DNA of 52,548 bases from IMG/VR virus record IMGVR_UViG_3300021964_000096, positions 1-52,548 of that record; one strand, written 5' to 3'. Positions 1-38,842 of this stretch are shown here, piece after piece. The notes beneath the pieces were generated by a model. That model did no database searches. It saw only the letters and a list, made by a program, of their open reading frames with translations, and was not told the origin of the DNA. This DNA is from a virus. The position numbers were made by a program, and so were the translations under genes. Position 1 is the stretch's first letter; each line of letters begins with the position of its first letter.

Positions 1-202
1 ATCGTCAGCCAAAAAGTTAGTGCATCAGTGCACAGAGCTTGGCGGCGTAAATGATGGAAGCACCGTAATGGTCCATCAAATAGCTACGGACGGGCGAGGG
101 ATCGTTATGAACTCCGCGAGTAGCAAATAGCTAGATGACGAGGCAGGAGGGCAATCGCGACGATAAATTCTGCGGTTGTTTTCAGAGGCCGATTCTAGTG
201 GC
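1..202. other. protein-free structured region, left edge
   Basis: No convincing coding frame or complete tRNA is visible here. The stretch is near half G+C, clearly richer than the A+T-rich genes that follow, which suggests structured RNA. A short hairpin (CTAGT, loop GGCA, ACTAG) spans its end, at about 195-208. I found no T-loop consensus in it and no group I intron core motif. It may be the body of an RNA whose 5' end lies left of the window and whose 3' tRNA-like part follows. The strand is inferred only from the orientation of the T-arms downstream. Confidence 0.35.
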
Positions 203-373: not shown

Positions 374-452
374 GGGGGTGATTTGGTGTTGACGTAGTAG
401 AAAGCCTGCAAAGGAACTACTTCGGAAGACAGTTCGAGTCTGTCCACCTCCA
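374..452 (+). ncRNA. tmRNA-like tRNA-like domain with a minimal loop
   Basis: The 5' end, GGGGGTGATTTGGTGTTGAC, matches the conserved start of tmRNA (acceptor strand, then a stemless D-arm ending in TTGAC). The 3' end has CTTCGGAAG, then T-stem GACAG, loop TTCGAGT, stem CTGTC, then CACCTCC and A452. The acceptor GGGGGTG pairs with CACCTCC over all seven bases, with one G-U. In normal tmRNA the tag frame and pseudoknots, some 250-300 nt, lie between these halves. Here there is only a 5-bp helix (GTAGT 394-398, ACTAC 416-420) with a 17-nt loop. It has no tag frame ending in a stop and no encoded CCA. It could be a mimic or decoy, a degenerate tmRNA, or an unusual tRNA. The fold is directly visible; the function is inference. 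Confidence 0.5.
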
Positions 453-3137: not shown

Positions 3138-3210
3138 TGTCTCATGGTGTAATTGGCAACACGTTGGTTTTTGGTACCAAAGAGTCTAGGTTCGATCCCT
3201 GGTGAGACAA
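3138..3210 (+). tRNA. tRNA-Gln (anticodon UUG)
   Basis: A complete 73-nt cloverleaf is present. The acceptor TGTCTCA pairs with TGAGACA. The D-arm is GTGT/ACAC. The anticodon stem TTGGT/ACCAA carries loop TTTTGGT, giving anticodon TTG. The T-arm is CTAGG, TTCGATC, CCTGG. The discriminator is A and CCA is not encoded. It is the only complete tRNA in the window. It decodes CAA, which is common in these A+T-rich genes; TAG and TAA are used as stops, so it is not a stop suppressor. Confidence 0.95.
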
Positions 3211-18720: not shown

Positions 18721-18926
18721 TATTTTTTATTTTTTGGTACACAGTTAGGTACTTTTTTACCTCCTTTTTTCTTCATGCCAATCATTTTGTACCCTGACCA
18801 GCAAGGTCCTTTCTTCTTAGCTATACTAATGGGACCGCCAGATCCATCAGCATTCATTGTAACTTCTTGGTTAACAGGAAATTTATAGCTTCTAGATTCG
18901 TTTACTCTTTTAGTTATTGGTTTCAT
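18720..18926 (-). CDS. small basic protein with GYKMIGMKKK...VPNC motif
   Basis: The protein has 68 aa. The C-terminal signature CWSGYKMIGMKKKGGKK followed by VPNCVP is common at the ends of phage-encoded proteins in the sea, including cyanophage and pelagiphage virion proteins. The two Cys may be structural. The stop shares a base with the holin start; the start overlaps the giant gene end. Probably a small virion or assembly peptide. Confidence 0.65.
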   Translation of the reverse strand: MKPITKRVNESRSYKFPVNQEVTMNADGSGGPISIAKKKGPCWSGYKMIGMKKKGGKKVPNCVPKNKK

Positions 18927-21900
18927 CGTAATATTATTTTTCTAGTCCTTGTTGTTCGTGTTCGTTTATTTGTTTTTTTGCTTTTCTTTTTATCTTCTAA
19001 ACCTAGGTTCCATTCATTCCAACCTGCTAGCAAAGCAATTCTTTGCCACTCTTCTACATTCTCTCCTAAAGCAGCGTCTATATTATTTATTTTCTTAATT
19101 AACCTATCTAATGGTACGTTAGTAGCTGCGGATATAACTTGACCGCCAGCTAAATAAGCTGGGTTGTCTAAACTAAAACCTTTTTCTTTCATTTCATCTT
19201 TATTCCATTGATAAGCTCTAGACGCGTTCTGTATTTGTGATACTTTAGCAGATAAAGGTGGTGATACTCTTAAAAGATCAGACACTAAAACTCTTTCTAC
19301 GTTTGGTCGTTTTTTATCAAGCTCGGTATTTAACTTTATAGCTGTATTCTTTAAAACACTAGCTATAGCGCCTACGTAACCAGAGCCTCTCATAACAGAA
19401 TCTGCCATACCATTTAAGGTTCTGTAAGAATCTTGTTTTTGTTTTTCAGACATTTCATTATCTTCATCAAAAGCTATAGCAAATAAAGCATTTTGAAGGG
19501 CGTTAAATATTAAGTTTTGAACAGCTCCGTAATACAGTATTTTAGATATGTTTTCTTTTTTACTACCTCTACCGTCTTTAAGATCCATATAAGCTTTCTT
19601 CATTATACGGTTGTACTGCATAGGCGTATTTGCAAAAGCTAAAACAACTCTACCTAAATCACTAGCTTGCTGAGCTGATATTCTGTCAGGTCTAGATGAC
19701 TGTTGGTTTTCTTCAGATATTTCTCTCCAGTCTTTAAGAGCTTGCTTCTCTGCGGCAACCTCGTTCATACCTTCTTTTACATATTTTTTAATTCTATTTC
19801 TATAATACGTAGAACCTCCAGACGCTATAGCAAAACTATCAGCAACTTGCGTTGGTGTAAAACCAAATTCAAGAAGTTTATTGACAACTCCTCTAACACC
19901 ACCTTTTTTAGCCATATCAGCAATATCAGCTTCGTTTATATTCATACGTAAACCGCTTCTTCTTTCTTTCAAAAAGTCAGAGTTCATTAACGTAGAAAAA
20001 TCCTTCCAATACTGTTTTTGATTAGCAAAAGCTTTTGCAGCTGCAAATATATTATTGTCTTTAAAGTTCAAGTAGTTAAAAGAAGATATCGTTTGTAGAA
20101 CTGCTGATCTTGTATTAAAGAACATAGTTACACCAATACTACCAGTTAACCAATCAACTAGTTTACCTGAAAACTTATCAGCATTGTTACCTCTGTTTCT
20201 ACCAGTTTCCATACGTTTTAATATACCTTCCATAGAAGATCTATAATTCTTACCAAACGCAGCTTCTAATTTATTTAAGTTTTGCTCAGAAAATATTTCA
20301 CTAACGTTTTGCTTCCAAGGCTCTAAATACTTAGCTCTTTTAGTAGTGTTTAAAGTTTGTAGTAAATCTGTAGTGATTGTTCCAGTAACCCAACCTTCGC
20401 CTGGTTTTGCGTATTGATCACCTTTTAATATATTTACTAACTGCTCTGAAAAAGAACTTAGTTCTGGAGATTTTTCTACAAACTCATTAAGTGATTTTAA
20501 ATCCGCCTTACTTAAGCCAGGAACTTCCATGCCTTGCTTACTCCATATATTAACTCTAACAGCTTGCTCTTGAGTGAAAGGTTCTCCAGGTAATTTTTTT
20601 CTTAAATTCTTAGGTACAGAGCTTATTTGTTTTTTTAACGCGTTAAAATCGTTTAACATAGCTACCCTGTCTCTAGATATATTATTCATGGCTCTAGCGT
20701 AAGGATCTAGCATTGTTTCTTTGTAAAACTTCATTTGAGCTTCACCTTTTTTACCTTTAGCTAAAGTTGTGTATAGCAAACCTGTAAAATCATTAGCAGA
20801 ATAAGGAACAAAAAAGTTTAATTTACCTTTTCCTTTTCCAGCAACCTCACCTTTAACTCTAGCGTATTTCTTTTGAGCTCCAATACCTGTTTTAAACTCT
20901 AAGTATTCGTTAAATGTCTTGCTTAAATCTATGTCTTTAGAAGCTTTGGCTTGTTGTACTTTAGATTTTACATCTATTTGACTTAATATATCTTTTACAG
21001 CTTTAACGTTTTTAATAGCATCATCTGCGAAGTAAAAATCATTGTAACCTTCACCTGCTTTATCTAAAACCCATTTAGCTTTAGCTTTAGCAGCTCCATC
21101 GCCTAACCCAGTTATGTTTTCAAGCGGTATATCTATACCAGCTTCTTTCATGAATTTCTGTATTTCAATAGCAGATTCAGGTGGTCTAGCTGTTAATATA
21201 AATACGTCTTCAGTTCCTCTAGCTGCTGCTATTTTTTCAGCTACACTAAATAAAGGTCCTTTTTTACCGTCAATAACTTTGCTAAACTCCTTAAAATCAA
21301 ATTTAGCTCCTTGACTCTCTAAAAGATCAGCTTGCTTAGCAAACTCAGAAGCATTTATTTTACCAACTTTATTTCTTGTTATACCTGAGTAAACCTTCTG
21401 TAAAAATCTTTCAGGTAACGCTTCACCAAAGCCGATGTCTGTAGTTTCTATTTCGTATAGTCTATCTCCAAACTCTTCTCTATATCTATTAGCACTTTCT
21501 TGAACTTGCTCCCAGGTTTTTCTAACAACAAAGTCAGGTAGTGATCTTTCAACTCTAGCTTGATTTCTGGATATAGCGGTTTCAAGAGGTGTGTTTGCTA
21601 CAACCATATGAACTTCAAAACCTGCGTCTTCAAGTTGCTTAACTTTCTTCATGGTAGCATTGTAAGAAGCGCCAGTACCATCAATTACCATACCATCTCC
21701 GTTCTTAGCATACTTATCAAACTTAGCAACAGCTGCTTTTCTAGCTGCCGCACCAAGTTTAGATCTCGTAGATCTTTGTTCTTTAGTGTACTCACCTTCT
21801 CTAGCTGGTAATCCAGCTTCTTCTTTCATAGCTTCAAGAGCTATATCTTGATTTACTACTTTAAAACCTCTTCTACCTAACTGTAAACCTTTACCTATGT

Positions 21901-24900
21901 TTGTTTTACCAGCTCCAGGCCCACCAACCATGAATATAGCTTTATATTTGTTAACCCCTTGCGAGAAGCCGCCTTCTACGTTTGGGGTAGTGTAATTTAC
22001 TTTACTATTAGATCTAGCTAATGTATCATCAAAATCAAATACTCTAATTTTTTTAACAGGAGCTTTTACGTCGTTACCTGCTTTTAAAGCTTTGTCTAAA
22101 GACTTTAAATTTTCTATGCTTTCTTGAACACTTTTAGGTTTTTCAAAAAACTCCTTTGAAGCTTTTGTAGATGTATTTTGCTCTAAAGCAGATTGGGCAT
22201 CTTTATAAGCTTGCTCAAAACCAGCCCCTTTTTTAACTGTTGTGTATGATCCATCAGCTTGTTTCTCATAAAGAGTAAGCTCTGTTATATCTCTACCGTA
22301 ATGGCTAAAGTTGTAATATCTTTTCCAAGGGTTTATAAGAGCTTCTAAAGGTAAGGAGCTTTGGTATTTTTCATTTATAATATTATCCATTTCCTTAGGG
22401 ATAATACTAGCGCTATAATCGTTTAATTTAGCTCTAAGTTCAGCCTTTGTTATTTTACCCTCTAGATACTGAACAGAGTAAACCTTCATAACGTTTGCAG
22501 GAGGATTATGCTCATACCTGTAGTTATCAGGGTTAAAATCTTTACCTTTTACAGCAATACTATTTAAGTTGGCTGCAGCTCTTAGCAAGCCTTCCATTGA
22601 AGATGTACTGCTAGATAGAAACATGCCAGTAGAATTATTGTCTCCGTTTTTCTTAAACTGCTCTAAAATATCTACATATAAATCTCTATTAGCATTAGCG
22701 TACTCTAAAGAACCGTCTAATGTTTCTTTAGATATTTTACCTTCTTTTTCAACTTCTTTTATAGCAGAGGAAGTTGCCGTTGAGCTCTGCTTAGCTCTTT
22801 TTACATCTATTCTTTTTCCGTCAAACTCTATATGTGAGAATTCCATTTTTTCACCTTCTTTAGTGTTTTTTGGTTTTCTAACAACTCTTATAGCGTCAGG
22901 GTTTGACATGTTGGGTTTTATAACTAAATTTATAAAATCTTCAGCTTTACCAAACGCACTTTGTCTAGTAGTACCTGTTTTACCGTTAGATAACTCTAGT
23001 ACTATCCCAGCGTCTGTTTCAGCCCACTTAAATAAACCACTACCAAGTTTAGCGTTAGCAGAGTAAGCTTTAACTAGAAACGCAGCTGTTTCAGCAAGCT
23101 CTGCATCTGTTTTGTCTTTAAACATCTCACCAATAGCCTTTTCATGTGCTCTTGTAAAAGCATTTATTTGTTCCGGGTTATCGAAGTCAATACCGTTTCT
23201 ACCTACACCTAACATTTCTTTAGTTTGCTCTTGAGCTCTTTGCTCTGAGACCTGCTCGAACAAATATCTTTGAAGTGGCTTTGGTTCAGTGCCTTTGGAC
23301 AAAGCTCTACTAGCTCTATCATACTCACCAACATTGTACTCTATAGATTTTATTAAATCATTTTTAGCTTTTAAAGGTGTGCCATCTTTCTTAGTTAAAA
23401 AAGTTTTATCAAAAGATTCGTTAAAAGCTTTTTCAACTTTCATGCCAGAAGCAATAGCGTTGTAGAAGTCGGCTTCACCTTCTTCATACATCTTTATATC
23501 CTTTGGGTTACTTATTAAGCTAGGTTTAAATTTATTTAATTTTCTTTTAGCCTCTTTAATAACTTCACTAGCCATACGCTTAGACGTGCCAGCTGCAATA
23601 TCAGCTATTATTTGATCTGTGCCTTTAGCTGTCTTGACACCAGATTCTTCAATCTTAGATCTTATAACTTTGTTTGTAACGTTATCTACGTAAAGCTTTG
23701 TTAAACCCTGTAAGAGTGTCCCAAACTTAGTTCTATTAGCTGCTTTCATAGGTATACTAAGCTCACCAGCTGGTGTAATACCTATATCTTGCTGTAATTT
23801 TCTTAATGTCTCTATAGATGGTTTTCTAAACTCAGGCTTTAGTCTCCAAACTTGAGTTTGCGATGTTTTACCTAAGCTTCTGCCTTTAGGTGAAGATATG
23901 CCAGGTATTTTAGTATCAACCTTGTCATACATTATTTTAAGCATTTTATTGCTTAAACCTGTAGCATAACCTTTAGCGTCAGGCGAAACATCTATAATCT
24001 TTTCTTGGCCTTCTAAAGTTTTAAGCGTAGCTTCTGGACCAGCAACGTTATATTCTGGCACTGTCTCCATAAACCTTTTAAACTCTTGAACGTTTCTAAA
24101 AAGTCCTTGCATTCTAGAAACTTCAGCTGCGCCGCTACCCCTACCGTAGTTCAAAGTAGATTTACCTGTAGCTCTTTCGTAAGGCACATCTAACAATGCT
24201 TCAGCTACTTTAGGTGAATACTCGTTAGCCGCTGTTTTGTATGTCAATGTAGATAAAGTTTCTGGCTTTAAATCTACAGACTCTTCTATTAATTCACGTT
24301 TAACTCTTACAGGTGTAAAATCTCTAACATCTATAAGATCTTTTGTTTCTGCCTCTTCTTTAGCTCTTCTTTCAGCTAGAGCTTCAGGAGATGATTGGTC
24401 TACTATTTCTCTAGCGAACTCAGTGTCAGCGCTTGTGGTTTCTCGTTTTCTACTATATTCTTCTACTATTTTAGGACCAACTCTAAGACCTAAAGGTTTT
24501 TGCATGTAAGTACTAAGCTCCACCTTTTCACCAGTTCTTGGGTTTACAGGTTTATAGTTTCTAATAACACTTTCAAGCTGATCTAATATTCTACCTTCTA
24601 TCTCAGGATTACCTTTAATAGCGCTAACAGGTACACCTTTTTTAGCCGCCCATGTACTTACAGCTTCTATACCTATTCTAACATACTGATCTTTAAAGTC
24701 AGTAAGCTCTTTAGGCGACATACTTTCTTTATTGTTTTGGTATTTTTCAGCTAGTTTACTAGCAGAAGCTTCAAGATCTTTAGATGCCTTTATTTCATTA
24801 ACTCTATCCTGTGTTATTTCATTGCCAAACGTATCAACTAGTTTGTTTCCGTCAATACTAATATCACTAAACTTTTCGAAACTTTTTTTAATACCACGTG

Positions 24901-27900
24901 CAGATCCTCCCTCTGAAACTCTACCCATGCTATACATAAATTCTAACAACTGCGAAGCTCTAGTTGAGTTAGATGCACTTAAGTCTAGGCTTGAGCTTAA
25001 ATCTAAACCTGCTTTTTTTCCTGTATTAACTAAAGTTCTTTTTAAGCTAGGAAGTAATCCTTTGTTTAAAAGCAAGTCAGCATATTTAGGGTTTTGTAGA
25101 AACTCTATAGCATTCATAACATACTCTTCAGCTTTAACATCCTTGCCGTAGGCAAAATCTATAACTTCTTCAAAAGTTAAATCTTTCTTGCCCTTGTAAT
25201 CAAACCTTTTACCTTGTAAAGCTTTATTGAAATCATTTTTTATAACATCTTTAAACTGCTTAGCAAGCTCAGGATTGGCTTTGAAAGCCATATCCATAAA
25301 AGCGTGTCCTACTTCGTGAGCAAAAACACCAGGCTTGTACTTTAATATGTCTACTGTAAACTTTTTGCTGATAGGATCATATAGTGCTTTTGCTCCTCCT
25401 GTTTTTTCACCACCCTCTACAATTTCTAACGAAACTTTATCTCCTAATATACCGGATTTTCGCATCTCATTAAACTGTCTATTGACTTGTCTTTGAGCCG
25501 CAGCAATATTAGCAGTACCTTGGTTTATAACCTTTTTAGCAGCTTCAATTTCGTATTTAGTAGATTTATCGCTATTAAGCACTGCTCTAGCAGCGTTCAT
25601 ATTATCTCTTACTGATGCTATATCTAGCTTATTAAAAGCTCTATCAGCAACAGCCATTTCGCTTTTCAGTAAATTTACTAAGTTTTGTTTCTTTAAAACT
25701 TCACTATCTGTTAATAGTTTTTCTTTACTAAAAGGACTTGCTTCTTTAAGAGATCTAGAAGTACTTTCTAAAGAACGTTTTTTTAGAAAATCGTTGTCAA
25801 GTTCATTTTGTGTTTTCTCAAGCAAGCTTCTTTTTTCTGCTATACTTTTGAAATCTAACTTTTTTATACCTAAACCTCCTATTAAAGAAAATACAGCCAT
25901 ATTAACAGCTACTCTAGACCCTACTTCTCCTAAATCTCCATACTCTTCTTCCATGCTTGAGCGGAAAGCTTTACTACCTATTACATCTTTATATACAGCT
26001 TCAGTAAACAAAGCTGCTTCAGATCCAACCGCACCACCTGGTCCAGCTAAAACTACTTTTTCTAAAAAAGGGTTAAACCTAGCTAAGTCTCCTTGAAATC
26101 TAAAAGGTATTGCTTTTCTCATTAAAGCACCTCCCGCAAAAAACCCAACACCACCACCTGTTTGAGATTCTCCTTCTGTTACAGCTTTAAATTTAGCTTC
26201 TTCCAATAAAGCTCCTAAAGCAAATCGCAATGGTTTATTACTAGTATTTGCTATTAATCTAGTTATTCCTGCAGCTCCAGCTACCTTATTGGCTAAAGCA
26301 AATTTAACCAGCTCTGGCATAAATGCTCCAACTCCTTCTGCAACATTCATTCCAAAACTTCGTTCAAAATTTTTCTTTTGATCTTCGGTCATAGTTATGC
26401 CTGCTTCGGAAAAAACACCTTCTAATGCGTCTAACTCTTTTCTAGCTGTAGTACCTATTCTTTCAGTAGCTTCCTCACCAATTGTGGCTTCCGTAGCGGC
26501 TTCAAAAAACCTAGAAGTTTTTGATTTCTTTATACTACCAGGATCTATGTTTAATAAATAAGCAGTTTTAAAAGCTTCTCTTTCAAGGTTTAATTTTTTT
26601 CTATCTTTGCTAATAGACTTAAGAGTTTTACCTAACAGAGGAACAATCCCTCCTTCTGGGTTGTATATAGATGACTGCAATAACTCTTCTTGATCTTGAA
26701 AATTCATTAGATCAGAGTACTTAACGTTTTTAAACACGCCATCCTCTGGTTCGTACCCGTAATTACCCAAAGCAATAGCAAACATTCCGTCTGTAGGTTT
26801 TAAGTCAATAGTGCTATTTCTATTTTTTTGGTAATCTTCATATTCTAATACATGACCAAAATAAGCCTGCTCTAAACTTTCTAAGTCTAAGTCTTTATAA
26901 TAGCCTTCTAATTCGTTCAACTCGCCTTCAAGATTAGTCATTTCATCTTGCTCACCCGCAGAATTTTTAGCTTCTACTTCAGGCTTAGTTAACCTCTGCC
27001 CTGTTTTATTATCAAACATGAAGGTAAGATCTTCGTTGTAAGTATTAAGAGCTTCATCGGCTAACGGTGATAGTTCTTTTAACTTTACTTGAGCGGCTAG
27101 TTTTTCATCATAAGTTCCGTCTCCTTGCAGTATTTTTTGTTGCTCTCGCGTTTGTTTTATTATATTAGCTAAATTTTTAGCTTCTTTAGATATTTCACTT
27201 ATGTGAAGCTTAGCTCCTGTGTTTAATTTAAAATCGTAACCACCGTCTTCTAACGCGTCTTCTACTAAAGCTCTAGCTGCATTCTGCTCTTGCTCAGCTT
27301 CTTGTTTTGATAGTTTTTTAATTTTAGCTTTAACTATATTATCTATGTCATAGTCTGATGGAAATTCTCCATTAGGAAATCTTCTGTAGTGAGCTTCTTT
27401 TATCTCAGACCTAATGTTGTCAAAAAAAGAAGGGTCTTCAGACAGCTCGCTTATAGAGCCTCCCTCTATATCTAACTGATATGGAGTATTAGAGTTCAAC
27501 ACAGCGTTAGCTGTTGATTCTAGGTTTTTTACTTTTTTTATATATTCCTTAGGTGTAGCCTTTGGGAGCTGCGTATTTCTTGTTCTAGTGCTTTCTACAG
27601 TTGTTTCATTAGTTGATTCTTCTAAACTTCTAGTGTAAGGCAAGGCATCTTTGTCATCTTCTATATCGACATTGTTTATTCCAAACTCAGCAAAAAACTC
27701 TTTATCATTTAACTTTTCTAAATCCAAAGAACCATTTTCCTGCTCTAAGTCCGTACTCTCGGATGCTATCTCCGGCTGCGGTGTTACAGTCGCATCCTCT
27801 TCCGCAACACCTTTTGGCTTTTTTACTTCTTTGAGACCATATTTACTAACATATTCATCAAAGCTCATGTTAAGGTTTGAAGCAGCTAGTTTTACATCTT

Positions 27901-27934
27901 CTAACGAGTATTCATTTCCTTCGTATTCAAACAT
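18923..27934 (-). CDS. 3003-aa polyvalent virion protein (zincin-type motif, HAD phosphatase with inserted P-loop kinase, internal-core C-terminus)
   Basis: The N-terminus has FEYEGNEYSLEDVKLAA, a short domain often found at the start of giant phage proteins. A zincin motif HEVGH is at 873-877. A HAD phosphatase starts at about 1964 (RVFDFDDTLA, Asp1967, Asp1969), is interrupted by a zeta-toxin/PNK-like kinase with P-loop GGPGAGKT at 2004-2011 and NQDIALEAM after it, then resumes with FILTARP (Thr2248) and FADDA (Asp2304, Asp2305). The last 700 residues are helical with a hydrophobic stretch (ILYYGAVQNLIFNALQNALF), as in internal virion proteins. Large polyvalent proteins of this kind are thought to enter the cell with the DNA and modify host targets. 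Roles of the single domains here are inferred. Confidence 0.85.
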   Translation of the reverse strand: MFEYEGNEYSLEDVKLAASNLNMSFDEYVSKYGLKEVKKPKGVAEEDATVTPQPEIASESTDLEQENGSLDLEKLNDKEFFAEFGINNVDIEDDKDALPYTRSLEESTNETTVESTRTRNTQLPKATPKEYIKKVKNLESTANAVLNSNTPYQLDIEGGSISELSEDPSFFDNIRSEIKEAHYRRFPNGEFPSDYDIDNIVKAKIKKLSKQEAEQEQNAARALVEDALEDGGYDFKLNTGAKLHISEISKEAKNLANIIKQTREQQKILQGDGTYDEKLAAQVKLKELSPLADEALNTYNEDLTFMFDNKTGQRLTKPEVEAKNSAGEQDEMTNLEGELNELEGYYKDLDLESLEQAYFGHVLEYEDYQKNRNSTIDLKPTDGMFAIALGNYGYEPEDGVFKNVKYSDLMNFQDQEELLQSSIYNPEGGIVPLLGKTLKSISKDRKKLNLEREAFKTAYLLNIDPGSIKKSKTSRFFEAATEATIGEEATERIGTTARKELDALEGVFSEAGITMTEDQKKNFERSFGMNVAEGVGAFMPELVKFALANKVAGAAGITRLIANTSNKPLRFALGALLEEAKFKAVTEGESQTGGGVGFFAGGALMRKAIPFRFQGDLARFNPFLEKVVLAGPGGAVGSEAALFTEAVYKDVIGSKAFRSSMEEEYGDLGEVGSRVAVNMAVFSLIGGLGIKKLDFKSIAEKRSLLEKTQNELDNDFLKKRSLESTSRSLKEASPFSKEKLLTDSEVLKKQNLVNLLKSEMAVADRAFNKLDIASVRDNMNAARAVLNSDKSTKYEIEAAKKVINQGTANIAAAQRQVNRQFNEMRKSGILGDKVSLEIVEGGEKTGGAKALYDPISKKFTVDILKYKPGVFAHEVGHAFMDMAFKANPELAKQFKDVIKNDFNKALQGKRFDYKGKKDLTFEEVIDFAYGKDVKAEEYVMNAIEFLQNPKYADLLLNKGLLPSLKRTLVNTGKKAGLDLSSSLDLSASNSTRASQLLEFMYSMGRVSEGGSARGIKKSFEKFSDISIDGNKLVDTFGNEITQDRVNEIKASKDLEASASKLAEKYQNNKESMSPKELTDFKDQYVRIGIEAVSTWAAKKGVPVSAIKGNPEIEGRILDQLESVIRNYKPVNPRTGEKVELSTYMQKPLGLRVGPKIVEEYSRKRETTSADTEFAREIVDQSSPEALAERRAKEEAETKDLIDVRDFTPVRVKRELIEESVDLKPETLSTLTYKTAANEYSPKVAEALLDVPYERATGKSTLNYGRGSGAAEVSRMQGLFRNVQEFKRFMETVPEYNVAGPEATLKTLEGQEKIIDVSPDAKGYATGLSNKMLKIMYDKVDTKIPGISSPKGRSLGKTSQTQVWRLKPEFRKPSIETLRKLQQDIGITPAGELSIPMKAANRTKFGTLLQGLTKLYVDNVTNKVIRSKIEESGVKTAKGTDQIIADIAAGTSKRMASEVIKEAKRKLNKFKPSLISNPKDIKMYEEGEADFYNAIASGMKVEKAFNESFDKTFLTKKDGTPLKAKNDLIKSIEYNVGEYDRASRALSKGTEPKPLQRYLFEQVSEQRAQEQTKEMLGVGRNGIDFDNPEQINAFTRAHEKAIGEMFKDKTDAELAETAAFLVKAYSANAKLGSGLFKWAETDAGIVLELSNGKTGTTRQSAFGKAEDFINLVIKPNMSNPDAIRVVRKPKNTKEGEKMEFSHIEFDGKRIDVKRAKQSSTATSSAIKEVEKEGKISKETLDGSLEYANANRDLYVDILEQFKKNGDNNSTGMFLSSSTSSMEGLLRAAANLNSIAVKGKDFNPDNYRYEHNPPANVMKVYSVQYLEGKITKAELRAKLNDYSASIIPKEMDNIINEKYQSSLPLEALINPWKRYYNFSHYGRDITELTLYEKQADGSYTTVKKGAGFEQAYKDAQSALEQNTSTKASKEFFEKPKSVQESIENLKSLDKALKAGNDVKAPVKKIRVFDFDDTLARSNSKVNYTTPNVEGGFSQGVNKYKAIFMVGGPGAGKTNIGKGLQLGRRGFKVVNQDIALEAMKEEAGLPAREGEYTKEQRSTRSKLGAAARKAAVAKFDKYAKNGDGMVIDGTGASYNATMKKVKQLEDAGFEVHMVVANTPLETAISRNQARVERSLPDFVVRKTWEQVQESANRYREEFGDRLYEIETTDIGFGEALPERFLQKVYSGITRNKVGKINASEFAKQADLLESQGAKFDFKEFSKVIDGKKGPLFSVAEKIAAARGTEDVFILTARPPESAIEIQKFMKEAGIDIPLENITGLGDGAAKAKAKWVLDKAGEGYNDFYFADDAIKNVKAVKDILSQIDVKSKVQQAKASKDIDLSKTFNEYLEFKTGIGAQKKYARVKGEVAGKGKGKLNFFVPYSANDFTGLLYTTLAKGKKGEAQMKFYKETMLDPYARAMNNISRDRVAMLNDFNALKKQISSVPKNLRKKLPGEPFTQEQAVRVNIWSKQGMEVPGLSKADLKSLNEFVEKSPELSSFSEQLVNILKGDQYAKPGEGWVTGTITTDLLQTLNTTKRAKYLEPWKQNVSEIFSEQNLNKLEAAFGKNYRSSMEGILKRMETGRNRGNNADKFSGKLVDWLTGSIGVTMFFNTRSAVLQTISSFNYLNFKDNNIFAAAKAFANQKQYWKDFSTLMNSDFLKERRSGLRMNINEADIADMAKKGGVRGVVNKLLEFGFTPTQVADSFAIASGGSTYYRNRIKKYVKEGMNEVAAEKQALKDWREISEENQQSSRPDRISAQQASDLGRVVLAFANTPMQYNRIMKKAYMDLKDGRGSKKENISKILYYGAVQNLIFNALQNALFAIAFDEDNEMSEKQKQDSYRTLNGMADSVMRGSGYVGAIASVLKNTAIKLNTELDKKRPNVERVLVSDLLRVSPPLSAKVSQIQNASRAYQWNKDEMKEKGFSLDNPAYLAGGQVISAATNVPLDRLIKKINNIDAALGENVEEWQRIALLAGWNEWNLGLEDKKKSKKTNKRTRTTRTRKIILR

Positions 27935-32911: not shown

Positions 32912-35900
32912 TTAAGGTATTGTTGGCGTGACGGAATTGTATTGTACTATTTCAGAAATAATTCCATCTACTATTTTTATAAATTTATATTCATCTGGTA
33001 TTGGAGTAGGGTCAGTAGGATCTAGAGCTAAATTTGGATCAACAGTAGAAGAGCCTACCCATAAATACAATGCGTCCCATAGAATAAACTCGCAAGGATC
33101 AGATCCGTATGTTACCCAGATTTTAGTACCTACATTAACACCTTCGGCAATATTGTATCTATATTCAGCATTAATATTGCCTAAAGGTCCCGCGTTTGGA
33201 TAATCGATAAAGCTTTGTTCTATTGCACCTCTCGCCCATTCCATATCGGTAAAACCGCTCCAATTAATCCCTCCTAATTCTAGGCTAGCATCCCAATCTC
33301 TAAACCAATAAAAATAAATTGGTGTTTCCGGCAGACATTCATCTTCGCAGAGAGGGTTTGGGATTTGATTCATTTGAGTGATTTCTGTAACAACACCTGA
33401 TGAGTTTGTTTTAATTAATTTATACCCATCCGGCAGCAAAGATACATTGGTCCATCTATTAGCTGCATTATATTCTATGGAATATTCAAACGCATACCCG
33501 GGTCCTGGTCCTGTTACTAAATAACGGTCTGAGGCAACGTTCAAGTTAATAGGATCTATATAAAGAACTGTGTTAACTTCAATTTCCCCTGGTCCGTGCC
33601 AATAAATCTCAAAGCTGCTCCATCCTCCATTTGGGCCATTTATATTAGGATCATCATGTTGTTCCCAAAATGAATTCATAAAACCCCTTAAGCTACATAA
33701 AAAGTTATTTGTACTAGTATGTCCTTGTGTAACATTAAAAGAAGGTATTTGAGGATCAGAGTTATTTGCATTTAAGTATGTATCAAACCATCTAAACATA
33801 TCTGGCGTTGTTGGCGGGCATACTGCAAGAGAGTTATATGGAACAACAGAGCTAATAATACCATCCGATCCCCATATAACTATAAAGTACGTGTTAGGTA
33901 CTGAGACTGAATTATTAGGGTCTAAATAGAAGCTGTCTGGAGCAATTCCAATTGGCGGAGGCTTTATCCATAAATAAGTACCTGCTTCGGTTATAGGCTG
34001 CAAAGTATCTTTATCGTACATCTGAGTCCCTACGGATATTCCATCTGAAAACACATACTTAAATTGATGATAGTTTATTGAAGTTACCTGGCTGTAATTT
34101 CCATTTACATAATTGTAAAAATCATCTATAATACATTTAGCGTCCTGAGCGGTTAGTGCTTCTAATATTGAAGAGCTTAAACCTTTAGTGTTCCACTGAT
34201 ACCATCCTTCAAAATCAGTGTCTGGAGTTGGAGAACCAGAGCTGCTACAAGTTTCGTCAATAGTAACAGTTAATAAATAATTCTGAGGATCACACTCTAC
34301 TATAACTGGTGGTCCAATACCTTCACCTATAAATTCGCAATTGTTAAACTGCTCTAATCCTTTTATATAGTTAAAATACTTACCTTCTTTCTTTTCAAAC
34401 TCTTTAATCTCACCTCCTTCAAGATTTGTTTTGATATAATTTACATACCAACCTGGTTGCTTTTGTTCTACAAAATTTGGAATTATTTTATTAAAATTAA
34501 CTTCAGCTATAGAATATGGTTTACCTAATTGCTCTAGCTTGTATTGTAATCTTCTACTTTGCGTTCCAGTGTAGTTTAACGTACTAAACCCTTTTACAGA
34601 TTGAGGCATTTCATTAAAGATAACATTGAAGGCGCTATCATATTGTATACCATAAAAATTATTAGCTTTATCGAGAAGCCCGTGCTCCCAAATTCTACCG
34701 TGTTTAAAGGTAAAGTATCTATTGTTTAAACTAAGACCACTTTCTTGTATAAACGATTTTCTAGATGTCCAACCATCTACAGACTCTTTAAACGAAACAG
34801 TGGTTTGTGTTATTGGATCTGTTGTGTCTATGTTGCAGTCGGGGTTTAATTGATAATCTTGACTCTCGCTAAAAGTGTTTTTCCAAGATTGGCTAAGGTT
34901 GTTTAAAGTTACATTGTATATATCTTTGTCATCGTCATAACTACCTATAATTTTAGTAGAAACACCTAGGTTATCAGCAAAGAAATCTGACATACCTTTT
35001 TCTGCTATGTTAGTTATACCGTCTCTAGACAATCTTATAACAGCACCTCTATTTTTATCTGTAAAGTAAGATCTAAATGCGTATTGAGCAAATGATTCTG
35101 GATTTTTAGATATACCAAATTCACCAGCGTAAGGAACAGCTTGACCTAAAACAGCAGTATTACCAGTTAGGTTAACGTTGCCATCAGCATTATACAAGGC
35201 ATCTTTGTTAGCTAACACTCTAAAACACTTATCTTCACAAAGTGTTATTAAATCAGTGTCTCTAGCATGTAGCTTTTGTATCGTACCGTGTATTGGGTTT
35301 AAATCTTTTGTTATGGGTAAGGCTTGTATAAACTGATTTAATCTATTTATACCTGATGTAGAGTTGTATACTTGAGAGAATATATAACCACTACCCCTTC
35401 TTTCCTCTGCATAGGGATCGTCTAATACTGTAGAAACTTTAGGGCCTTTATCTATATAAACAGCGTTGTAATCATCTCTAATTCTATTAGACTCAACACC
35501 TTGACCATATGAATAACAGTTAAACCACTCTATTTGCTGGTTTGTATTATTATAGTCTGATATAGGTATAGCGTTAGAGGCTTCATAGTAAAGATCTAAA
35601 TCTACAGCTTCTTTAGGTTCTGTTTCAAATATAGCTGGATTAGGTGAAGTTAATAGTTTATTGTTGTCGGTACTAACGTTTTCAACTACTTGTATAGAAG
35701 GAAGTTTACTACTCAACACACTCTGCTGATTCCACTCTGGCATCCAAGGATCGTTTATAAACCTATCTAGAAATATCATAAATATAACTATACCGTTTTC
35801 AGAGTTTGTTCTCCAATTGTTACAATTTGACTTTTTGTATCTACCTCCTCTTGGAACTAGATAAGAAATTGTTTCCATCACGGTATATACCTCGCTCTGA

Positions 35901-38842
35901 TCACCTTGCTTAGATTGGAACCTTATTTTAGCGCCTTCTGCTAAAGTACCACCGGTGATTCTTCTTGATCCAAATTGGCTTGGCGGTGCATAACCAACCA
36001 TGCTGTTTATATACGTTTGGCTTGTATCGGGTCTTACGCCTGTGTAAACAAAGCCTACAACTCTTCTTCCCTTTGTAGGTGGCGCGTATCCTTCGCCATT
36101 CCACGATCTAGTGATATTTTGAGAGCTAAAATTAGTTCCAAAAGCTGGTGTAGTGCCTGCGTAATTCATGCTACTCCAGCCAAATATGCTATGCTGCTTG
36201 TTTCTTGAACTACATCCATCGTCACTACATCCATCACAACCCGCATCGCCGTAATTAAAAGTTTTATGGTAATTGCTCCAGCCCCAACTCCATGTTGTAG
36301 TAAAATCTATTTCATCTCTAACAGCATATCTAGGTGCTAAAGCTTTAAACGACTCTATTATATTTGTGTCAAACGCAAAGTTTCTATTTATTTTAGCAAA
36401 AAACCTACCCTCAAATTCTGGTAAATTTTTCTTTTCCGGCTCATATATTTTTATGGTAACTGTTGTACCAGAATTGGTTAAAGGCACTTCTGGACCCAAA
36501 GGTTCTTTTAACACAATTTCATACTCGTCATTATTACTACCTTTAGTTTTAAAAGACTCTATTTCATAATAATCACTAGTTGTACCAGCTGTTGTTATTC
36601 TTAACTTTCTATTACCGGTAAAACCTTTATGAAACTCTGGATTAGAAGTGTTTGTAGGCCCATCAAACTGAAGCGTTATTCTACCAGGTTCAATTTCATT
36701 TGTTAATTCTACATCGTTTCCGGCTTTAAAAATATCAAAAGTTGATATAAATTCTGGAGCAGATGAAGATATTGATAATATTTTATATCTATTCAACTCT
36801 TTTATAGCAACGTCATTATCGTGTTGTTTTTTTAGAATTAAATAAGTTTGTTCATCTACTTTATTTCTTTCTGAAGAAGGAAAAGACAGCCATATATTAC
36901 CATCTTCTGCATGATAAAATCTATCTAACGCTAGATTGTAATATTCATTAGAAGTTTCTTTTATAAAGAATTTATAATGAGTAGCCCAGTCTGGTGGTAT
37001 ATTAAGTGGACTTACTTGTAGCTTGTTAACAGTAGAAGAAGCTGATATATCTAACTGAAAACTAGCTTTTTGACTTGTAAAAACAGGTGTTTCTCTTCCG
37101 TATGTATCTTTATAAACAACTCCAACCTGATAAGTTCTTATTGATTTTATAGAAGGTGCTGGTTTTCCTATTTCGTATATAGGCTCGTGCGAAAAACTAT
37201 TAGAGCTAAGTAGTAAATCTACAGATGTAGATATACTAGAATCCGCGTTAATATACCCAACCGTGTTATAGTTTTGTAAATAATTACCATACACTATTCT
37301 ATTGCCTATAACTTCTTGAGATTTAGCTTTTTTAGGCACGTTATCCCAAGGTCTTAAAAGTTGATTATTATCTACAGTAGCACCTATTAATTCGCTTTTT
37401 ATTTGATACGTGCTAGGTAAAGAAACATTTAAATAATCCTCTTTTTTCAAAGTATCAACAACGTAGACAGATGTAGAATTACTTTCCTTATATAATATAT
37501 CAATTTCTGAAACCTCTTCGTCTGTCCAAATTAAATTTTCTATTATAAGTTTTTTAATTCTATTAACCATACCTAGGTTGTATGCATCTGAAGAAACGTA
37601 TTCAAATTCACCACCTAGAAATGCAACTTTAGAAAAAGGCGAAAAACAAGAATATTCATTGTCTATATATTTCCATCTATAAGCAAATCTAGGAAATTTA
37701 TATTCAAATATACTATCTTTTTCTAGCAAAACACACTCCCAAACTATTGGCTCTACTTCTTCCTCAGAATTTACAGTTTTTTGTATATCTAAAGATATAG
37801 CCTGTATCTGAGCCGTTATAGTTAGGTTGTTTATTTGTTTTATTTGTATTTGTATAGAATACTCTTCGTCTTGACCAAAAGGATTTTCATAATTACCTGT
37901 CATTATGACTACGTCATCTACTTGCCAAGCTGTAGCAATTTCACTTATTTCAAAGGTTATATGACCGTCCCAACCATAAGTTGCATCATAGTTAGGGTTA
38001 TTTGTAGGGTTATTAAAACTGGTATTTAAATAAGCACCACTTTCTCTTTGATCTAAATACTCTCCGTAAGTTGGATATGATATAAAAACATTTGGTTCGG
38101 TTACTGGGTTTGGTATATATGTAAAGTTTTCTAAATCAGTATTATTAAAAATTGTAGATACTGGTGTTATTCCAGTACCAGGAACATCATTTCCAAACTT
38201 AGAAACAGCTGCATTTATAGTAGGAGCATTTGTTGGTGATAACTTCGCTACGGTTACATCTTTTTCAGCAAAATCTGGTCTACCAGTTAAACTAGTCTGA
38301 TAAGTGTTTTGCTCTGGCAACCACTTAGGAATTTTAGTGTGTGTTGTAAAATCAACAGAACCTGTTTTAAATTTTTCAATATTAATCTTCTTTGGTTCAG
38401 TCTGATCGTCTGTCCAAAATAAAAACTTATCAAGTATATTAATACCTGTAATTAAATAGTCTTGTGAAAAATTGAGTATACCAGCTTTATCAACTAATAC
38501 TGGTTTTACTAGATCTGTAGTTTGATCATACTCCGCGATAGCGCTTGTGTTGTCAGAGGCTATAAACCAATAAATTCTTTCGGTTTGGTCATGTCTGTAA
38601 GACCCAATAACAACGGGGTTTTGAAGGGCATCTATATAGTCAGAACTCCAGTTTTCAGAACAACCTTCACAGCCACGCTGCTCTCGGTTTCCTTTTACAT
38701 TTTGTAAAGTACCTACATTAGATCCATCTGAGTTTGCTAAATCTAAGTTTAGCGCGTCGCGGTATTCACCATTTGGTATTAACCGCTCGTCAAGATCTTT
38801 ATTCATTCTCCCTGATTGGAAGGTATGGATAAATTCTGGCAT
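32912..38842 (-). CDS. 1976-aa tail hub/stabilisation-type protein with C-terminal repeats
   Basis: The N-terminus (TFQSGRMNKDLDERLIPNGE, then YRDALNLD and NVGTLQNVKGN) matches a domain found at the start of large tail or stabilisation proteins of podoviruses, including crAss-like and marine phages. The middle is beta-rich with a Cys-rich insertion (AGCDGCSDDGCSSRNK). The last about 430 residues hold three diverged repeats of about 130-160 aa, each with an F/YxWF-type start and a GxxVGT or similar turn. It probably forms the tail nozzle and carries fibres. Size is well above the T7 gp12 level. Confidence 0.75.
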   Translation of the reverse strand: MPEFIHTFQSGRMNKDLDERLIPNGEYRDALNLDLANSDGSNVGTLQNVKGNREQRGCEGCSENWSSDYIDALQNPVVIGSYRHDQTERIYWFIASDNTSAIAEYDQTTDLVKPVLVDKAGILNFSQDYLITGINILDKFLFWTDDQTEPKKINIEKFKTGSVDFTTHTKIPKWLPEQNTYQTSLTGRPDFAEKDVTVAKLSPTNAPTINAAVSKFGNDVPGTGITPVSTIFNNTDLENFTYIPNPVTEPNVFISYPTYGEYLDQRESGAYLNTSFNNPTNNPNYDATYGWDGHITFEISEIATAWQVDDVVIMTGNYENPFGQDEEYSIQIQIKQINNLTITAQIQAISLDIQKTVNSEEEVEPIVWECVLLEKDSIFEYKFPRFAYRWKYIDNEYSCFSPFSKVAFLGGEFEYVSSDAYNLGMVNRIKKLIIENLIWTDEEVSEIDILYKESNSTSVYVVDTLKKEDYLNVSLPSTYQIKSELIGATVDNNQLLRPWDNVPKKAKSQEVIGNRIVYGNYLQNYNTVGYINADSSISTSVDLLLSSNSFSHEPIYEIGKPAPSIKSIRTYQVGVVYKDTYGRETPVFTSQKASFQLDISASSTVNKLQVSPLNIPPDWATHYKFFIKETSNEYYNLALDRFYHAEDGNIWLSFPSSERNKVDEQTYLILKKQHDNDVAIKELNRYKILSISSSAPEFISTFDIFKAGNDVELTNEIEPGRITLQFDGPTNTSNPEFHKGFTGNRKLRITTAGTTSDYYEIESFKTKGSNNDEYEIVLKEPLGPEVPLTNSGTTVTIKIYEPEKKNLPEFEGRFFAKINRNFAFDTNIIESFKALAPRYAVRDEIDFTTTWSWGWSNYHKTFNYGDAGCDGCSDDGCSSRNKQHSIFGWSSMNYAGTTPAFGTNFSSQNITRSWNGEGYAPPTKGRRVVGFVYTGVRPDTSQTYINSMVGYAPPSQFGSRRITGGTLAEGAKIRFQSKQGDQSEVYTVMETISYLVPRGGRYKKSNCNNWRTNSENGIVIFMIFLDRFINDPWMPEWNQQSVLSSKLPSIQVVENVSTDNNKLLTSPNPAIFETEPKEAVDLDLYYEASNAIPISDYNNTNQQIEWFNCYSYGQGVESNRIRDDYNAVYIDKGPKVSTVLDDPYAEERRGSGYIFSQVYNSTSGINRLNQFIQALPITKDLNPIHGTIQKLHARDTDLITLCEDKCFRVLANKDALYNADGNVNLTGNTAVLGQAVPYAGEFGISKNPESFAQYAFRSYFTDKNRGAVIRLSRDGITNIAEKGMSDFFADNLGVSTKIIGSYDDDKDIYNVTLNNLSQSWKNTFSESQDYQLNPDCNIDTTDPITQTTVSFKESVDGWTSRKSFIQESGLSLNNRYFTFKHGRIWEHGLLDKANNFYGIQYDSAFNVIFNEMPQSVKGFSTLNYTGTQSRRLQYKLEQLGKPYSIAEVNFNKIIPNFVEQKQPGWYVNYIKTNLEGGEIKEFEKKEGKYFNYIKGLEQFNNCEFIGEGIGPPVIVECDPQNYLLTVTIDETCSSSGSPTPDTDFEGWYQWNTKGLSSSILEALTAQDAKCIIDDFYNYVNGNYSQVTSINYHQFKYVFSDGISVGTQMYDKDTLQPITEAGTYLWIKPPPIGIAPDSFYLDPNNSVSVPNTYFIVIWGSDGIISSVVPYNSLAVCPPTTPDMFRWFDTYLNANNSDPQIPSFNVTQGHTSTNNFLCSLRGFMNSFWEQHDDPNINGPNGGWSSFEIYWHGPGEIEVNTVLYIDPINLNVASDRYLVTGPGPGYAFEYSIEYNAANRWTNVSLLPDGYKLIKTNSSGVVTEITQMNQIPNPLCEDECLPETPIYFYWFRDWDASLELGGINWSGFTDMEWARGAIEQSFIDYPNAGPLGNINAEYRYNIAEGVNVGTKIWVTYGSDPCEFILWDALYLWVGSSTVDPNLALDPTDPTPIPDEYKFIKIVDGIISEIVQYNSVTPTIP

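Follow-up and report, generated by a model that had tools for sequence, protein, structure and literature searches.

The element and its anatomy

What is the tRNA-like domain (TLD) of a transfer-messenger RNA (tmRNA) doing in a viral genome if the message part of the molecule is missing? The question is raised by the IMG/VR virus record IMGVR_UViG_3300021964_000096, a linear record of 52,548 bases that is hereafter called the window. Positions 374-455 of its + strand specify an 82-nucleotide RNA, GGGGGUGAUUUGGUGUUGACGUAGUAGAAAGCCUGCAAAGGAACUACUUCGGAAGACAGUUCGAGUCUGUCCACCUCCACUA, which is a tmRNA TLD with no message. The Rfam tmRNA model RF00023 aligns with this segment from its first to its last position (53.1 bits against a gathering cut-off of 47; E value, 3.9e-18) and skips around 300 positions in the middle, in agreement with the initial annotation, which had read a message-less TLD from the letters alone. 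Comparison with tRNA models had been proposed as a check. The tRNA model, which belongs to the same Rfam clan, scores below RF00023 at 374-455 and is not the better fit. ARAGORN calls neither a tRNA nor a tmRNA there, its sole call in the window being a tRNA-Gln at 3138. The RNA is not a conventional tRNA-Ala, as it has neither a D stem nor an anticodon arm.

The acceptor is formed by GGGGGUG (374-380) and CACCUCC (445-451), followed by the discriminator A73 at 452. Its third pair is the wobble G3 (376)-U70 (449), the alanine identity pair that had been anticipated at this place. The D-loop, AUUUGGUGUUGAC (381-393), has no stem and ends in UUGAC, and the T arm, GACAG-UUCGAGU-CUGUC, occupies 428-444; both had been described correctly, as judged from the sequence and from the RF00023 alignment. 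Two details required revision. The start at 374 stands, but the end had been set at 452; ACUA, not CCA, comes after the acceptor strand, and the element extends through a CUA tail (453-455) to position 455. In addition, the two halves had been thought to be joined through a 5-bp helix and a 17-nucleotide loop. Comparison with nine relatives replaces this with a central arm (394-423) made of a 7-bp stem, P2, in which GUAGUAG (394-400) faces CUACUUC (417-423) with six of seven positions paired and one U-U mismatch; a purine internal loop, AAAG/AA (401-404/415-416); and a hairpin, CCU-GCAA-AGG, with its stem at 405-407/412-414, a GCAA loop and a CC/GG signature.

A message part with a resume codon and a tag frame is absent from 374-455: 24 nucleotides lie between the inner limits of the 5' and 3' outer ends of P2, and 394-423 is a covarying hairpin. 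Pseudoknots are likewise absent from the consensus fold, and 82 nucleotides are too few to hold them.

Comparative evidence for the fold

Folding of 374-455 as a single sequence gives a z score of -1.67, which is weak evidence, and the structure of the central arm is decided instead by comparison (alignments A3 and A4). When the P2 arm and the T stem were aligned in nine relatives, 99.2% of the cells were paired and 14 cells carried a double change; the mean in shuffled alignments was 3.7, and none of 500 shuffles reached 14. Sliding the partner strand lowered pairing to 32-45%. A second alignment was made of 15 compact RNAs from unrelated phages, that of the window included. Pairing was found in 95.7% of its cells, with 73 double changes (shuffle mean 24; 0/500), and fell to 37-47% in the slid controls. 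The covariation of P2 was not built in by the way the relatives were collected because no search pattern included P2.

The third pair of the acceptor also shows a preference. Among 100 TLDs with U70, 98 have G at position 3 and two have A, so that the G-U wobble is preferred. The later search patterns prescribed U70 (as part of UCC at positions 70-72); it is also found in loci detected without those patterns, and the loci found through the neighboring 62-amino acid (aa) protein alone have the same acceptor tail, CACNUCC-ACUA. Variation is also seen at pair 4-69 and in the T stem, and is to be taken as illustrative only, since extraction demanded full acceptor pairing.

Relatives at the same locus

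The first base of the window falls inside a gene. Translation of positions 1-54 (+), compared with alignment A2, identifies them as the 3' end (…IVSQKVSASVHRAWRRK-stop) of a conserved gene of 62 aa. The complete protein, seen for instance in L091 (5745-5933), is strongly conserved and has CxC...C motifs (MYCRCG...TGNTIQIVSQEVSASVHRAWRRK); it has no match in Pfam or PHROG, and a search for its gene in cultured phages found nothing. Wherever the gene and the RNA array described below are both present, the gene lies upstream.

When RF00023 was run on terminase relatives, three divergent tag-less TLDs were obtained, and the remaining relatives were collected through DNA patterns together with the upstream 62-aa gene. 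The extraction rule was passed by 133 distinct short RNAs (≤230 nucleotides). Because the set includes a small number of other tRNA-like genes (e.g., L304 and L318, which have tRNA-like scores with the model R1 described below), we state the total as more than 100 distinct tag-less TLDs, from uncultured marine Bacteroidetes-type phages. TLD and 62-aa gene have the same orientation in 143/143 loci that contain both, with the TLD mostly 3-624 nucleotides downstream; in some relatives, only 3-10 nucleotides separate it from the stop codon. Many loci have a further open reading frame (ORF) that starts 20-30 nucleotides past the TLD. Some loci with the 62-aa gene yielded no TLD by the extraction rule, and several of them end at a contig edge. 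A full tmRNA is absent from every 62-aa-gene locus, and the 19 that were found lie elsewhere. Hence, inspection of the same locus in related phages, which had also been recommended at the outset, reveals recurrent tag-less TLDs and no complete counterpart.

Among 84,980 genomes, the 3'-end pattern of the TLD was detected in five contigs, three of them with the 62-aa gene and one corresponding to a bacterial full tmRNA; a plasmid search found nothing. Within the samples searched, tag-less TLDs are restricted to phages. One further candidate, L092, was rejected as a full tmRNA matched by chance. The host of the window virus is probably a member of the Bacteroidota because of the relatives of its terminase, which matches that of Flavobacterium 'elemo' phages at ~45% and that of an uncultured spring phage at 62%; Cellulophaga phages are also related, as they are to the 'elemo' phages.

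Two TLDs with different inserts per phage were observed in L257 (79-260, where they are adjacent), L140 and L245. In L177 (4285-4470), ARAGORN calls a tmRNA with the tag ERTEVYYIC*; this tag is probably a misreading because the locus is a TLD with the nested modules m2, m35 and m7.

A compact form in unrelated phages

The compact architecture of the window RNA is not confined to loci with the 62-aa gene. A broader pattern and BLAST detected compact TLDs in L282, L291, L294, L296, L297, L329 and L343, and the stretches fetched around them do not contain that gene. Most compact TLDs have the classic UUCGAC D-loop. Two were found in cultured Streptomyces phages, LuckySocke (OR725497, 17977-18057; L350, 291-371) and Shaeky (MT701595, 42932-43013; L351, 291-372). 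Both lie within tRNA arrays, are unannotated and have G3-U70, and they provide convenient laboratory models.

A covariance model, R1, was built from 15 compact members, the window among them, and its own members match it by construction (88.9 bits for the window). Compact RNAs score at least 62 bits with R1, and full tmRNAs and tRNAs ~35 or less. At an E value of 1e-9, R1 found nothing in 198 genomes of the sampled bacterial class, a result that informs on the compact form only, as module-bearing TLDs score too low. Matches in the Mycobacterium phages TClif and Shaobing (L352 and L353) were rejected as TLDs: they look like tmRNA 3' ends, lie beside tyrosine integrases and probably serve for attachment at the tmRNA gene of the host.

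Exchangeable RNA modules

Most relatives share a constant scaffold, GGGCGUGAAAUGGUUAG ... AACGCAGGUUCGAUUCCUGCCACGUCCACUA, in which inserts take the place of the central part; total lengths are 68-188 nucleotides. The acceptor is present in the minimum-energy fold of 100/100 TLDs, and an uninterrupted stem of at least 5 bp closes the insert in 65% of cases, compared with 20% of mononucleotide shuffles. Inserts from 71 loci fall into 47 clusters. Of the 27 locus pairs with ≥95% DNA identity between their 62-aa genes, just 4 have similar inserts; both counts hinge on the score thresholds chosen, and the 62-aa gene itself may recombine.

Around 33 recurring modules, delimited by eye, are each found in several parents. 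Module m3 occurs in TLS3 (a recurring scaffold), TLD, m13 and m14; m12 in m9, m10, TLS3 and TLD; and m7 in TLS3, TLD, m35 and m2. Nesting reaches several levels, as in m7 within m2 within a TLD (L215) or m6 within m4 within a TLD (L220). Module cores are fixed in strand, with 247 forward and 2 reverse occurrences. The architecture of the relatives' RNAs is modular, nested and exchangeable. Mobile introns were considered and rejected as an explanation for the inserts, as no empty TLD was seen and the closing stems change with the insert. An element acting at the DNA level was also rejected: the preference for G-T as pair 3-70, like the constancy of strand among the modules, points to RNA.

The window has its own share of modules upstream of the TLD, which, like the large family of module-bearing relatives, had escaped the initial annotation. 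All are on the + strand: m26 (54-74), which recurs upstream of TLDs in relatives; the m12 core GCGAGGGAUCGUUAUGAACUC (94-114), within its own outer stem; m25 (137-192); and m11 (300-366), which encloses m32 (316-354). Exact copies of the m12 core were found in 33 viral contigs; with up to one mismatch allowed, the core was absent from all 395 bacterial genomes of the class sampled. The m3 pair occurs in one of the 395, on a phage contig of that metagenome-assembled genome, and copying of the modules from the host was discarded. Between m25 and m11 lies a second tRNA-like scaffold, TLS2 (203-291), with an AACUAG…CUAGUU acceptor and the T arm GAGGG-UUCGAUU-CCCUC. Neither ARAGORN nor the Rfam tRNA model calls it; it recurs with different inserts in relatives, and m32 is also found inside the TLS2 of other phages. 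An upstream message for a two-piece tmRNA was rejected, since 55-373 can be divided into modules that recur elsewhere, and the spacing of 3-10 nucleotides between the 62-aa gene and the TLD in some relatives points the same way.

TLS2 has a long variable arm, and its insert in several phages can be read as a putative short frame of MDATGVIKLTRVHYC or more, with mixed synonymous and non-synonymous changes. TLS3, found upstream in L083, L084, L085, L103 and L128, reads GCUAG ACGAGUA GCUUA AUUAGG, insert, ACA UAAGU GAAU, GCUAGC; in L084 the outer stem is GCAGG/CCUGC instead.

When Rfam was applied to the modules, in 20 loci at the gathering score and in 11 loci at E values up to 3, only tRNA and tmRNA were matched. 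No description of the modules, or of modular tRNA-like phage RNAs, was found in the literature searched, outside of which lay bioRxiv preprints and the majority of subscription papers. Nor was one found of their general organization, in which RNA domains that can be swapped and nested sit on an invariant tRNA-like body; it occurs here in an uncultured marine phage group with many relatives in databases. As a tentative suggestion, to which we attach somewhat less than an even chance, the modules might make up a combinatorial RNA arsenal: swapped and nested in tRNA-like carriers, one of them alanine-chargeable, each combination would hit host translation or defense and be quickly replaced in an arms race. 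If this were true, the locus would be the RNA counterpart of an anti-defense gene island.

A proposed decoy of ribosome rescue

A TLD-only tmRNA is known from the mycobacteriophage DS6A (tmRNA Website tmID 11587; Mao et al. 2009), as related in PMC4131195 and PMC11915505. According to the same texts, the first citing Mao et al. 2009, a DS6A-like molecule strongly inhibits tmRNA in Escherichia coli, whether chargeable or not, perhaps by titration of SmpB. The leading explanation, which the initial annotation had already put forward, is that the RNA at 374-455 may be a functional, phage-encoded tag-less tmRNA that acts as a decoy of ribosome rescue, and we would give this proposal an even chance of being right. 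The tag-less RNA would be transcribed together with the upstream 62-aa gene; host RNase P and 3' processing would trim the transcript, and CCA would be added. Host alanyl-tRNA synthetase (AlaRS) would then charge the RNA via G3-U70, and the charged molecule would compete with host tmRNA for SmpB, EF-Tu, AlaRS or stalled ribosomes. As it has no resume codon and no tag, trans-translation could not be completed, and rescue and tagging would be damped during infection.

Support for a decoy comes from the fit of the tmRNA model with the message skipped, from the covariation of P2 and the T stem, and from the preference for G3-U70. The 62-aa-gene loci without a full tmRNA, the recurrence of the compact form in unrelated phages and the DS6A precedent point in the same direction. 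Several considerations weigh against it. The conserved G3-U70 is unexplained by titration of SmpB alone because the inhibition cited is independent of charging. At this locus, the UUCGAC/GGA signature is gone from most relatives, whose scores of 31-41 bits fall short of the tmRNA cut-off, and these RNAs may be unable to bind SmpB. Conservation of the AAAG/AA, CC/GG arm suggests a function beyond that of a bare decoy. Finally, expression, charging and binding to SmpB and EF-Tu are predictions.

Alternative explanations

The alternative that survives best is that the TLD is a stable carrier, processed like a tRNA, that provides ends, nuclease resistance and perhaps delivery to EF-Tu or the ribosome, with the central arm as an active payload that can be swapped; in the window, the payload would be the small AAAG/AA, CC/GG arm. 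Hypervariable inserts on a constant body, and modules that nest, recur in other scaffolds and keep to one strand, are what such a carrier would be expected to show. It fits the module-bearing relatives better than a decoy, given that their UUCGAC/GGA signature is lost and their scores are below the tmRNA cut-off. A mere carrier, however, needs neither the preference of G3-U70 over A-U nor the tmRNA-type D-loop of the compact class, and the compact arm is common to unrelated phages. We consider a carrier possible and less likely than a decoy. Both interpretations can hold in different members of the family, with a decoy in the compact form and a carrier in the module-bearing form.

The RNA might also help the phage as a working rescue factor of the kind suggested for mitochondrial tmRNA. 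Together with SmpB, the charged TLD would take the stalled peptide and free the ribosome without tagging. The alanine identity pair is kept, and mitochondrial tmRNAs without a tag frame co-occur with a targeted SmpB (PMC11915505). However, release of the ribosome would need a mechanism that works without a message, and the similar TLD RNA studied in E. coli was an inhibitor of tmRNA, which makes this possibility improbable. Less probable still is a role as processing punctuation, in which the TLD, as tRNAs can, would mark the cleavage point that separates the 62-aa gene from the gene after it in a polycistronic transcript. The invariable co-orientation, the location often a few nucleotides past the 62-aa stop codon and the proximity of the next ORF in many loci would suit such a role, but it leaves the alanine identity, the compact arm and the variable inserts unexplained, and the TLDs of LuckySocke and Shaeky lie within tRNA arrays. 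That the element is a relic, an option left open by the initial annotation, or an assembly error is hardly credible: full tmRNAs do occur in other phages, but many contigs have the tag-less form at this very locus, its P2 and T stem showing compensatory changes, and no full tmRNA is found there.

Comparison with known systems

A TLD-only phage tmRNA is a kind of molecule already known from DS6A. New with respect to the literature searched are the size of the family, the compact arm common to unrelated phages and the module-bearing variants. The window RNA resembles that of DS6A in being a phage-encoded TLD without a message; however, it belongs to another phage group, and the module inserts of most of its relatives are unreported for DS6A. 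What was a single curiosity becomes a class of message-less tmRNAs that is widespread and has a conserved arm, and that had gone without annotation even in cultured Streptomyces phages; whether a phage RNA switches off ribosome rescue becomes a testable question. A 2025 database contains 79 phage tmRNAs and nine sequences classed as 'standard, no CDS'.

With canonical one-piece tmRNA (ssrA, RF00023), the window RNA shares a TLD with G3-U70, the lack of a D stem, a tmRNA-type D-loop, the T arm and the standard order of the halves; it differs in its length of 82 nucleotides and in lacking the tag frame and the pseudoknots. A permuted two-piece tmRNA (RF04321) was rejected, as the halves are in standard order and the score is 31.3 bits against a cut-off of 47. 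Tag frames are also lacking in mitochondrial tmRNAs and in two plastid tmRNAs (PMC4131195, PMC11915505). These mitochondrial and Mallomonadaceae plastid molecules (RF02544, PMC11915505) are message-less, as in the window, but they are organellar and the mitochondrial genes are usually permuted, whereas the window RNA is found in a phage and has the standard order.

The module-bearing relatives also recall engineered tRNA scaffolds, in which a constant tRNA-like body carries interchangeable structured inserts. The phage RNAs differ in being natural, in having an alanine-type, tmRNA-derived body and in their nested modules.

A separate observation concerns the Maribacter phage Panino (PP540027; L093). 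Its positions 2440-2740 contain a 3' half ending in CCACCTCCACTA, a short spacer and a 5' half, GGGGGTGATTGGATTTGACAG, an arrangement that resembles a circularly permuted tmRNA; the tmRNA span deposited for this phage, 2431-2763, overlaps annotated tRNAs and seems to be mis-set. Elsewhere in the window, ORFs of exceptional size (3003 and 1976 aa) are found at 18923-27934 and 32912-38842 (-).
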